A DNA stretch of 64,000 nt from Spiribacter halobius (GTDB lineage Bacteria; Pseudomonadota; Gammaproteobacteria; Nitrococcales; Nitrococcaceae), in contig NZ_CP086615.1 of NCBI RefSeq assembly GCF_020883455.1, forward strand, positions 496,001 through 560,000. The letters run 5' to 3'. Of the stretch, positions 26,728-46,573 are shown in pieces (the stretch's first letter is position 1; every line of letters starts with the position of its first letter). Under the pieces are notes generated by a model, which was given only the letters and a program-made list of their open reading frames with translations, ran no database searches and had not been told where the DNA came from. A program made the position numbers and the translations under genes.

Positions 26728-27785
26728 GCGGCGTCGCCTGGCTGGCGCTGGCCTTTGTCGCCGGCCTGGTGCTGCTCGTGCTGGGCGGCGAGTGGCTGGT
26801 GCGGGGTGCCTCGCGCCTGGCCGCGCGGCTCGGCGTGCCGTCCCTGGTGATCGGGCTGACCGTGGTCGCCTTCGGCACCAGCGCCCCGGAGCTGGCGGTG
26901 ACCGTCGGCGCCGCCGTCAGCGGCGGGCCGGCGGCGGATCTGGCGCTCGGCAACGTCGTCGGCAGCAACATCTTCAACGTGCTGTTCATCCTCGGCATCT
27001 CCGCGCTGGTGACGCCGCTGGCGGTGAATCTGCGCATGGTGCGCCTCGAGGTGCCGGTGATGATTGCGGTGAGCGTGCTCTGCCTCGTGCTCATCGCCAA
27101 CGGCCACGTCGGCCGCGCGGAGGGTCTGCTGCTGGTGGCCGGGCTTGTGGCCTACACCGTGTTCACGCTGGTGCAGTCCCGGGCCGCGGCGAGCGCTGAT
27201 GACGCTGCGCCCACCGGGACCGGCGCGGTCTGGCGGCAGCTGCTGCTCATCGTCGGCGGGCTGGTGGTGCTGGTGGTGGGCTCGCGGCTGCTGCTGCACG
27301 GCGCCGTGGGCGCGGCCCGGCTGATCGGCGTGAGCGAGACGGTGATCGGTCTCACCATCGTCGCCGCCGGCACCTCGCTGCCCGAGCTCACCACCTCCGT
27401 CCTCGCCGGCCTGCGCGGCGAGCGGGACATCGCCGTCGGCAACGTGGTCGGCAGCAATATCTTCAACATCCTGGGGGTGCTGGGCCTGGCCGCGGTCATC
27501 GCGCCGGCGGGCGTGATTGCGCCGCCGGCGGTGATCGCCTTCGACGGCTGGGTGATGCTCGCCGTGGCCGCGCTCTGCCTGCCGGTGTTCTTCACCGGCT
27601 ACCGCATCGAGCGCTGGGAGGGCGGGCTGTTCCTGCTCTACTACCTCGCCTACAGTGCCTGGCTGATTCTGGACGCCACCGGCCACGATGCGCTGCCCGC
27701 GTTCAGCGGGGTGATGCTCTGGGGGGTGCTGCCGCTCACGGTGCTGACGCTGGTGGTCAGCCTCCGGCGGCGGTCGACGGGGTAG
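26724..27785 (+). CDS. Calcium/sodium antiporter (YrbG family)
   Basis: 353-residue inner-membrane cation exchanger made of two inverted halves. The paired alpha repeats are clear: FGTSAPELAVTVGA with GNVVGSNIFNVLF in the first half, and AAGTSLPELTTSV with GNVVGSNIFNILG in the second; these Glu and Asn residues bind the ions in the NCX fold. It starts with GTG overlapping the stop of the OsmC gene. The TAG stop at 27783-27785 is the first triplet of a repeat element. Confidence 0.92.
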   Translation: MSGVAWLALAFVAGLVLLVLGGEWLVRGASRLAARLGVPSLVIGLTVVAFGTSAPELAVTVGAAVSGGPAADLALGNVVGSNIFNVLFILGISALVTPLAVNLRMVRLEVPVMIAVSVLCLVLIANGHVGRAEGLLLVAGLVAYTVFTLVQSRAAASADDAAPTGTGAVWRQLLLIVGGLVVLVVGSRLLLHGAVGAARLIGVSETVIGLTIVAAGTSLPELTTSVLAGLRGERDIAVGNVVGSNIFNILGVLGLAAVIAPAGVIAPPAVIAFDGWVMLAVAALCLPVFFTGYRIERWEGGLFLLYYLAYSAWLILDATGHDALPAFSGVMLWGVLPLTVLTLVVSLRRRSTG

Positions 27786-28232
27786 CCCGCATATCTCACC
27801 TATTCGCGAAGCGAGGGCGTGGAGATGGCGGGCAGGAGAGGGGCAGCGCGCAACCCTTCCCGCGGGCCTCTGCGCTTCAGAGCGGCGACCTGGCAAGGCG
27901 GCGTTCGCAGCGAATGGCCGTAGCCCTTTGCAAGAACGCCAACGCAGTCCAGGGCGCCGCTCTGAAGCGCCCTTTGGGGCCGCACAGCGCGCGCGCAGCC
28001 GGCGTTGCGCTGCTTGACTGTACTCGCGGTACAGCGCTGCGCAGCGCGCCTTGTCTGCACGCGCGCCGTGCGGCCAGAGGCCCGCGGGAAGGGTTCCGCG
28101 CTGCCCAACGCGCGGGAGAGTCCGGGCGCGCAGGCGTACTCGACAGTACGTCGAGCACCCGGACCGAGCGCAACGCCGGACTGCCCGCCAGATCCGCGCC
28201 CGCAGCCGTGAATCGGTGAGATATGCGGGCTA
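27783..28232 (+). repeat. 182-bp-type element, copy B, with a 268-bp insert
   Basis: The outer parts match copies A and C (TAGCCCGCATATCTCACC at the left, GAGATATGCGGGCTA at the right). Between GGCGGGCAGGA and CGCGGGAGAGTCC lies an extra palindromic segment. Open frames crossing it are by-products of the repeat. The left end supplies the stop codon of the antiporter gene. Confidence 0.88.
27841..28106. repeat. Nested palindrome inserted in copy B
   Basis: The ends are 32-bp inverted repeats with one mismatch (27841-27872 and 28075-28106). Inside are a 16-bp perfect pair (GCGCTTCAGAGCGGCG at 27872-27887 with 27955-27970) and a second arm system (27979-28073) that includes GGCGTTGCGC. Folded, it would form a three-way junction. 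It is a second element type lying inside the first. Confidence 0.82.
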
Positions 28233-44681: not shown

Positions 44682-44773
44682 CGCCTTCCGTGGTAGCGGC
44701 CGCCGACCGCGACACGGCCCGGCCCGCAGGACCCTGATTCGCTGCCAGCAGGCGCATCGTGTGGGAGAGGTTC

Positions 44774-44896
44774 AACACAACGACACAACGGACACAACGG
44801 ATCACAACGGGGAGAGTGATGAATGTTCCAGCCCGCGAGCCCTCTATCTCTCTCTCCGTGGTGCCTCGTTGTGCTCGTGGTGTCGTTGTGTTGAGT
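44774..44896. repeat. Inverted CAACACAACG-type repeat
   Basis: Left arm TCAACACAACGACACAACGG (from 44774) and right arm CGTTGTGCTCGTGGTGTCG...TTGA (to 44896) are imperfect inverted copies, flanking about 50 bp. It is low in GC compared with the surroundings and looks like an inserted palindromic element. It fills most of the 284-bp gap between the AttH-like and MlaC-like genes. Confidence 0.75.
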
Positions 44897-44965: not shown

Positions 44966-45607
44966 CTATCGGTCCTGCTTCCAGGCGTCGTCGAGGCCCG
45001 CCTCGCCGTCGGCCAGGTCGGCGATGACCGCCTCTATGCCCTCCTCGCGCAGGCGCTTGCCGAGGGCGTCGCGGAACAGCAGCAGGGCGCTGATGCCGGC
45101 GACCTCGATATCGAACACCCGCCAGCGGCCGTCGCGGCGGTAGAGCTGCAGGCGCAGCGTGGTTTCGCGGATCTGCGGGCCGCGCAGACGGGCGGCGACG
45201 GTGGCGCGCTGGCCGTCGTCGCTCACCGTGCGCAGGTCGATCTGGCCCTCGCTGGCGAAGTCGGCAATCTCCTCGGCGTAGCGCTGCAGAGCGGCGGCAT
45301 AGAGCCGCGTCAGCCGCTCGCCGAGGGCCTCGCTGAAGCGATCCAGAGTGGCCGCATCCACCTGCCGCGCCCGCGGGCCGAGCAGGAAGCGGCTCATCAG
45401 CTCCAGGTCCACGTGCGGCATGGCCTCGGTGGCGACGATGCGACGGGCGAGCTCGCCGTCCTGCCCCAGCGCTCCGGCCTCCGCGGCGACCCGGGCCAGC
45501 GCCTCGTTCACCACCGACCGCACCACCGCGTCCGGCGCCGGATCCTCTGCCAGGGCCGGCGACAGGGCCAGCAGCAGCCAGAGGCCGAGCAGTAGCCTAG
45601 CCCGCAT
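44966..45607 (-). CDS. MlaC-like phospholipid-binding protein
   Basis: 213 residues: signal peptide (MRARLLLGLWLLLALSPALA) and an MlaC/Ttg2D domain, with RRDGRWRVFDIEVAGISALLL as its hallmark. MlaC shuttles phospholipids across the periplasm; here no mlaFEDB genes are adjacent, so it is an orphan copy. The start codon and codons 2-3 lie inside repeat copy C, whose end reads GGTGAGACATGCGGGCTAG on the minus strand and therefore gives both a Shine-Dalgarno-like GGTGAG and the ATG. Confidence 0.85.
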   Translation of the reverse strand: MRARLLLGLWLLLALSPALAEDPAPDAVVRSVVNEALARVAAEAGALGQDGELARRIVATEAMPHVDLELMSRFLLGPRARQVDAATLDRFSEALGERLTRLYAAALQRYAEEIADFASEGQIDLRTVSDDGQRATVAARLRGPQIRETTLRLQLYRRDGRWRVFDIEVAGISALLLFRDALGKRLREEGIEAVIADLADGEAGLDDAWKQDR

Positions 45608-45779
45608 GTCTCACCGACTCGCGAAGCGAGGGCGTGGAGATGGCGGGCAGGACAAGGCGCGGGAGAGCCCGGGCGCGCAGGCGTACTTGACAGTACGTCG
45701 AGCACCCGGGCCGAGCGCAACGCCGGCCTGTCCGCCAGATCCGCGGCCGCAGCCGCGAATCGGTGAGATATGCGGGCTA
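45598..45779 (+). repeat. 182-bp inverted-repeat element, copy C
   Basis: Begins TAGCCCGCATGTCTCACCG and ends CGGTGAGATATGCGGGCTA. It fills the whole space between the kinase-fold gene (whose TAG stop is its last triplet) and the MlaC-like gene (whose ATG at 45605-45607 is inside it). Same length and orientation as copy A. Confidence 0.92.
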
Positions 45780-46421
45780 GACCAGCAGATCGCGCAGATA
45801 CTCGAGGCGGCGGCGGGAGAGCTCGATGCGCTCGGCGAGCCCCGGGTCCGGATCGGGCAGGGCGTTGAGCACGTCGGCATGGAAGAACACCCCGAAGCTG
45901 TCGATGTAGTGCAGGTGCCGGTTGCGGTCGAGGACCAGATTCTCGAGACCGTAGAGGTCGATTACCCGTTCCTCGGACTGATACCACGCCTCGGCCACCT
46001 CGATGAACCGGCACAGCGCCGCCCGCGCCCGCGGCATGCGCTCGAGCAGCGGCCGCGCCTCGGCCTCGTTGGCGGGGTTGGCGATGTCGAACCAGCGGCT
46101 GATGGTGGGCGCCAGGGCCACCACGCTCTCGACGCCGTCGATGTGGGCGATGACGTAGAGCGTCTCCGGGACGATGTCGCCGAGGGCGTCGCGCAGGCGG
46201 CGGTGCTCGCGTCGCATCACCCGCACCTCGGCGGCTGTGAAGGGCACCCGTGGCACCTTGATGACGAAGTCCCGCGTCTCCCGCTGCCCGTCCCGGCGCA
46301 CGCTGCCCGCGCAGCGCCAGACCTCGCAGTGGTAGCCGTCACTGGACACCAGGGTTGCCGGCAGCCGGTCTGTCCGCAGGGCGTCGATGCGGGCGTCGAT
46401 ACGATCGCTTTCGCGGCTCAC
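45777..46421 (-). CDS. Predicted kinase-fold protein, function unknown
   Basis: 214 residues, rich in Arg and Glu. The pattern of an atypical protein or small-molecule kinase is visible: RDFVIKVPR (candidate ATP-site Lys), a helix REHRRLRDALGDIVPETLYV, then DLYGLENLVLDRNRHLHYIDSFG, read as a catalytic loop D-x4-N and a DxFG-like metal site. The family is not recognised with certainty. The GTG start at 46421 follows GGAGGGCC; the open frame to 46463 lacks such a site. The stop codon is supplied by repeat copy C. Confidence 0.6.
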   Translation of the reverse strand: MSRESDRIDARIDALRTDRLPATLVSSDGYHCEVWRCAGSVRRDGQRETRDFVIKVPRVPFTAAEVRVMRREHRRLRDALGDIVPETLYVIAHIDGVESVVALAPTISRWFDIANPANEAEARPLLERMPRARAALCRFIEVAEAWYQSEERVIDLYGLENLVLDRNRHLHYIDSFGVFFHADVLNALPDPDPGLAERIELSRRRLEYLRDLLV

Positions 46422-46573
46422 GGGCGGCCCTCCGGGGCGGCGGCCCGGAGGGCCGAGTTGCAAGTTTCAGGTTGCAAGTTGAAAGTTCGGCTCAGCTACC
46501 CAGGCTAGCAATGCCACCGATCGGTGCGATCGCCAAACCTTAAACATTAAACCCGAAACCCGAAACTCGGGTG

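Follow-up and report, generated by a model that had tools for sequence, protein, structure and literature searches.

In Streptococcus pneumoniae, BOX repeats are described, in the part of the report available, as providing the stop codon of 36 coding sequences and the start of some hypothetical open reading frames (PMC3049150). These elements resemble the repeat described here in being small, dispersed and a source of both stop and start codons. As far as the available text goes, however, the frames that BOX elements start are hypothetical and lack good Shine-Dalgarno candidates, whereas the present repeat starts conserved genes behind a GGTGA, and a single copy can supply both a stop and a start (PMC3049150). 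MITE frames fused to genes, among them a YPAL element that forms part of a signal peptide, are recorded in the accessible sections of a review (PMC2229807). According to the same sections, ERIC, RPE and YPAL are, like the present repeat, short, palindromic and MITE-like, and some are fused in frame to genes; they are read through as open frames, whereas here an in-frame TGA stands ahead of the ATG, and M-R-A is all that the element contributes (PMC2229807). A third parallel, taken from an excerpt of its source, is translational coupling by RNA unfolding, in which the upstream ribosome opens the structure around a downstream start (PMC12548453); the modelled structure at the present locus differs in that it would come from a mobile repeat. 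No report of a MITE whose terminal Shine-Dalgarno sequence and ATG start conserved genes was found in the open-access literature searched.

The window, a 64,000-nucleotide stretch of the Spiribacter halobius genome, contains a MlaC-like gene on the minus strand (44966..45607), given by the ORF finder as a 213-residue frame from 45607 and matching PF05494 (E 8.1e-28). Its ATG start codon (45605..45607, minus strand) lies within the end of copy C, a palindromic repeat of 182 bp counted from TA to TA with CTAG at both edges (45598..45779), which was delimited by sequence and repeat comparison. The plus strand at 45597-45615 reads CTAGCCCGCATGTCTCACC and the coding strand GGTGAGACATGCGGGCTAG; the coding strand across the junction is GGTGA GAC ATG CGG GCT AGG CTA CTG. 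The Shine-Dalgarno-like GGTGA (45611..45615, minus strand), presumably complementary to the 16S rRNA end, is placed 3 nt 5' of the ATG. Two codons 5' of the ATG and in the same frame, a TGA (45611..45613, minus strand) limits the open reading frame and bars starts further upstream. The next ATG, GTG or TTG after the element ATG is a GTG at codon 28, beyond the signal peptide (signal peptides of mlaC and the other candidates were assessed by eye). Because of this upstream TGA and the position of the next start, the ATG in the element is the only usable start predicted to give an exported MlaC-like protein, which confirms the claim of the sequence-only reading that the one start with a proper signal peptide (MRARLLLG...) lies inside the end of copy C. 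The N-terminus reads MRA-R-LLLGLWLLLALSPALA, with M-R-A derived from the element and the hydrophobic core from the host. The gene is intact over its full length, aligns with relatives and has coding-type codon use (third-position GC 0.92). No promoter-like or terminator-like sites were found in 45400-46000, and no Rfam family exceeded its gathering score in the 64-kb window. Downstream, an inverted repeat occupies 44772-44894, between the convergent CrtC-like and MlaC-like genes; its 49-nt arms are 82% complementary and separated by 25 nt.

The far edge of copy C carries a second coding signal, a point absent from the sequence-only reading. The upstream gene (45777..46463, minus strand; ORF finder, start uncertain), which matches no Pfam family over cut-off, ends at a TAG (45777..45779, minus strand) that is the other edge of the repeat. 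A single copy therefore holds the stop of the upstream gene and the start of mlaC, 169 nt apart, and among the 9 resolved co-directional host copies copy C alone supplies both. The upstream protein ends in LRDLLV, about 6 codons shorter than in the relative at locus L010.

The MlaC protein was searched in 59 genomes including the host, and 11 close loci were found in relatives, all in one genus and 42-50% identical; a genome-contig scan with the MlaC protein returned no relatives. The same upstream gene adjoins mlaC in 10 of the 11 loci (L020 lacks it), and in each of these ten the two genes overlap. In seven, the mlaC ATG lies 13 or 16 nt before the end of the upstream stop; at L013, L014 and L015 the overlaps are longer and the starts less certain. 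In four (L010, L012, L016 and L018), the upstream stop is CTAG and its phase to mlaC is that of the host; L010 reads M-N-A-P followed by R-T-L-L-L, compared with M-R-A followed by R-L-L-L in the host. The element went undetected in 14 genomes of the relatives' genus, with up to 15 candidates scored per genome. The sequence-only reading had proposed that the element rewrote the 5' end of mlaC, and the overlap in every relative with this gene pair, in a genus whose 14 genomes show no detectable element, supports that proposal.

Given this overlap, it is likely that the repeat replaced an overlapping stop/start junction and supplied both the start of mlaC and the stop of the upstream gene. Copy C would have inserted at the CTAG of the upstream stop, within an overlap of the upstream gene and mlaC like that seen in relatives, and its arrival would have cut mlaC off from the start codon and Shine-Dalgarno sequence it had before. 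With GGTGAGACATGCGGGC in phase, this end of the element would have become the new mlaC start, and the upstream gene would thereafter have ended at the TAG of the element's other edge. Excising the element and one TA from the mlaC junction leaves no start codon, so this was apparently not a clean insertion. As the upstream protein is about 6 codons short and the old start region is gone, some 18 nt including that region were probably lost. We infer both this order of events and the actual translation of mlaC.

Copy C belongs to an abundant family. The 39 other copies scored are 90-96% identical to it, and, with up to 2 mismatches allowed, the end motif occurs 221 times in the 4.17-Mb host genome, against 0 for a reversed control. 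From 85 fetched regions around listed copies together with the window, 182 ends were read (up to 5 mismatches), a sample in which copies with weaker ends are under-represented; 38 copies belong to a 182-bp size class and 16 to a 60-bp one. The commonest end form, GGTGAGATATG, accounts for 72 of the 182 ends and GGTGAGACATG for 6. The ATG is intact at 109 ends and replaced by AGG or ATC at 58, and GGTGA is present together with the ATG at 89. A further, longer class comprises copies of 449-451 bp that share the ends of the others; they lie in the window at 27783-28232 and elsewhere in the host genome (G000) at 851009, 1043799 and 2808621. Five host ends (G000 110037, 599489, 628016, 1092784 and 2683463) have a common outside flank, GGAGTCTGCGCC, as if nested in another repeat.

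Matches to the repeat were found in 6 of 54 genomes of the order, host included, clearly in G004 (2 places) and more weakly in G047 (17), and a pattern scan of 398 genomes of the phylum gave 7, again including the host. An exact 20-mer scan of named genomes yielded 101 loci (L060-L160), mostly from uncultured Gammaproteobacteria MAGs. The repeat has the features of a MITE: it is short (182 bp or 60 bp), multicopy, as the 221 end matches show, and without a transposase gene, and its ends are terminal inverted repeats, alike when read outward on both sides, with the whole copy folding on itself. In 31 of 72 paired host copies C-TA and TA-G are found at both edges, a pattern in which duplication of TA and of CTAG are indistinguishable; no empty site was found for the paired host copies.

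Ends shared with an autonomous element were found in another organism. At L136, in a Roseovarius MAG, an element of about 1650 bp lies between CTAG-CCTGCATTTCTCACC and GGTGAGATATGCGGG-CTAG and carries a transposase matching PF13701 (DDE_Tnp_1_4; E 6.7e-150), which we take to be a marker of the IS1380 family. No IS1380-type transposase was found in the host at E 0.001, neither PF13358 nor PF13701 has a match in the host genome, and the 182-bp repeat itself carries no transposase. Two host elements with PF01609 were rejected as the parent of the repeat, their ends being unrelated. The ends of the L136 element nearly match those of the repeat, and both have CTAG at each edge; the repeat differs from IS1380-family elements in having no transposase, and IS1247, a member of that family, is described in the accessible part of its report as making 5-bp duplications, not TA or CTAG (PMC3281130). 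Copy C is best explained as a non-autonomous transposable repeat, a MITE, whose ends resemble those of an IS1380-type element.

Eight further genes have a repeat ATG as their best-supported start, one in the host and seven in three MAGs, making nine with mlaC. The host gene encodes an alpha/beta hydrolase; its start lies within a 60-bp copy (3418098-3418157), and the next one comes at codon 36. The hydrolase has an element-free relative in G004 (62% identical) that carries an ATG of its own in the corresponding position, 4 nt beyond the upstream stop; in the host about 100 nt of other sequence lie between the upstream stop and the repeat, so insertion was not clean there either. Four genes in MAGs have profile matches exceeding the NCBIfam cut-offs that begin close to the element ATG: a PilW (L061; TIGR02521 from residue 10, equivalent to profile position 3, with TTG codons inside the hydrophobic core), an XdhB (L116; TIGR02965, residue 11 equivalent to position 4), a UbiH-family hydroxylase (L127; TIGR01988, residue 7 equivalent to position 1) and a DNA-deoxyinosine glycosylase (L097; TIGR04274, residue 7 equivalent to position 1). 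The last is the weakest case because a second ATG is present at codon 12. An exported peptidase-like protein (L075) and a sensor kinase (L105) were judged from N-terminal signal or membrane segments. In a HemD-like gene (L147), the next start is the TTG of codon 25, 4 residues into the Pfam match, and the first 70 of its 267 residues scored 27.2 bits, just below the HEM4 cut-off of 27.5. Some of the further genes have TTG, GTG or ATG codons within their conserved N-terminal segments.

The arrangement of a stop at the left edge and an ATG at the right edge recurs at L061, L075 and L105, where upstream frames of 381 codons (TAG), 513 codons (TAG) and 241 codons (TAA), respectively, end at the left edge; that of L105 is diverged, and 7 mismatches had to be allowed to find it. 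The hydrolase, L116, L127, L097 and L147 show no long upstream frame that stops at the element, and the left edge of L127 was not found. It had been suggested from the sequence that each copy carries a portable weak translation start. The conserved N-termini of these eight genes favour the element ATG and so uphold the portable start, but "each copy" goes too far, given that GGTGA with an ATG occurs at about half of the ends read (89 of 182).

Other genes beside repeat ends were left uncounted. Host genes resembling HDOD (557444, minus strand), RimM (1166857, plus) and PfkB (3840419, minus), all named by eye, and those at 2329759 (plus), 2266598 (minus) and 626113 (plus) likely have a native start downstream. 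At L104 the profile match begins at position 40, and the element-edge loci L084, L090, L107, L113, L126, L131, L133 and L150 were also not counted. As element-started genes, a host DUF454 gene (3057711, plus) and the gene at 1043799 (minus) are ambiguous.

The frames of genes beside repeat ends were assigned by a codon model in the host and as the longest open frame elsewhere; 97 of 182 host ends and 56 of 147 ends elsewhere were unresolved, and 8 of 155 ends elsewhere were dropped for lying less than 300 nt from the end of the stored locus. For genes pointing into the repeat, the terminal TAG is an in-frame stop in 46 of 51 resolved host cases (p 4e-17), for example at 45777-45779 and 27783-27785, and in 34 of 49 cases elsewhere (p 3e-7). 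The repeat perhaps sits at stop codons because CTAG is its target. Genes pointing outward are in the frame of the ATG in 10 of 34 host cases and 16 of 42 elsewhere (26 of 76 pooled, p 0.48). An excess in the ATG frame, as a sign of selection, is thus absent among these 76 host and other genes, and use of the repeat's start by neighbouring genes looks opportunistic. Some insertions may just damage genes. At four host loci (1197025, 2168553, 2827722 and 3569096, all minus strand) and in one gene of L109, signal-peptide-like starts run into the repeat edge in another frame, and no start occurs downstream of the edge before the gene ends. In the four host genes the frame stays open through the repeat and ends in ...RIGEICGL or a variant; the five genes may be fusions or damaged genes. 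A further host copy (G000 2666-2847) lies directly 5' of a RecF-like gene (named by eye), whose GTG start is a few nucleotides past the edge, and the gene on the opposite side ends at the TAG of the other edge.

These five genes, apparently cut at an element edge, together with the 169-nt spacer and the very stable stem of copy C, are what would be expected if the insertion had damaged the operon, leaving mlaC poorly translated or not at all and its open frame a remnant. This explanation is unlikely, since mlaC is intact, aligns with its relatives and keeps the third-position GC noted above, and the phase of the insertion yields a complete signal peptide. Were mlaC to start instead at a rare start codon or at the codon-28 GTG, the element ATG would be a chance in-phase triplet; chance alone places one triplet in three in phase, and the host has no excess of genes in the ATG frame. 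That a different start is used nevertheless seems highly improbable, because codon 28 is past the signal peptide, the stop bars upstream starts, and the repeat ATG fits other conserved genes as well. Replacement of the overlapping junction by the repeat remains the preferred history of the locus.

How mlaC would be translated from the repeat depends on the structure of the mRNA. Folded as RNA with its flanks, copy C gives -140.6 kcal/mol (z -6.3), and in the modelled free RNA the unpaired probability is 0.00 for the Shine-Dalgarno sequence and 0.03 for the AUG. The paired element ends may hide the mlaC start, and a ribosome terminating at the upstream TAG may open the stem and expose it. When the model keeps 9 or 12 nt beyond the upstream stop unpaired, as under a terminating ribosome, the AUG becomes 0.65 or 0.53 unpaired and the Shine-Dalgarno sequence 0.00 or 0.28. 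L061 and L105 behave similarly in the model (the AUG of L105 is already 0.34 unpaired in the free RNA), and the effect at L075 is weak (AUG 0.06 to 0.29). The modelled opening of the AUG follows from the palindrome itself and would hold for other copies too. Such unmasking by the upstream ribosome could keep the two genes coupled across 169 nt, an idea put forward tentatively, as the modelled Shine-Dalgarno sequence stays mostly paired (0.00-0.28 unpaired) and structure just past the upstream stop reduced coupling in a screen, according to the portion of that report available (PMC12548453). Plain reinitiation across 169 nt is argued against by the finding, in the accessible text of another study, that a spacing of about 20 nt nearly abolishes reinitiation (PMC10666635). 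It is quite possible, though short of probable, that the element ATG starts mlaC independently of the upstream gene and that the hairpin merely lowers expression. The GGTGA stands in a good position relative to the ATG, and no long upstream frame terminates at the element ahead of the hydrolase, XdhB, UbiH-like, glycosylase and HemD-like genes, so coupling cannot be required everywhere. Independent initiation fits poorly with the modelled free RNA, in which both the Shine-Dalgarno sequence and the AUG are almost wholly paired, and with the overlap of the two genes in relatives, an arrangement that is usually coupled, as the available part of the same study has it (PMC10666635). A broader proposal is doubtful: that the hairpin serves as a portable coupling cassette, carrying a stop at its first foot and, at its second, a Shine-Dalgarno sequence and ATG that become exposed when a ribosome terminates at the first.

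Entry of a mobile repeat into an overlapping stop/start junction can evidently spare both reading frames for use, and nine genes have a start codon that is best explained as derived from a mobile element. This bears on the annotation of gene starts and on the tolerance of operons to insertions. It also bears on the variable N-termini of exported proteins, for which the element supplies a ready M-R-A n-region. If the repeat does act as a coupling cassette, an overlapping gene pair that receives it would still have both members translated and linked, and such elements could spread through operons without breaking them.
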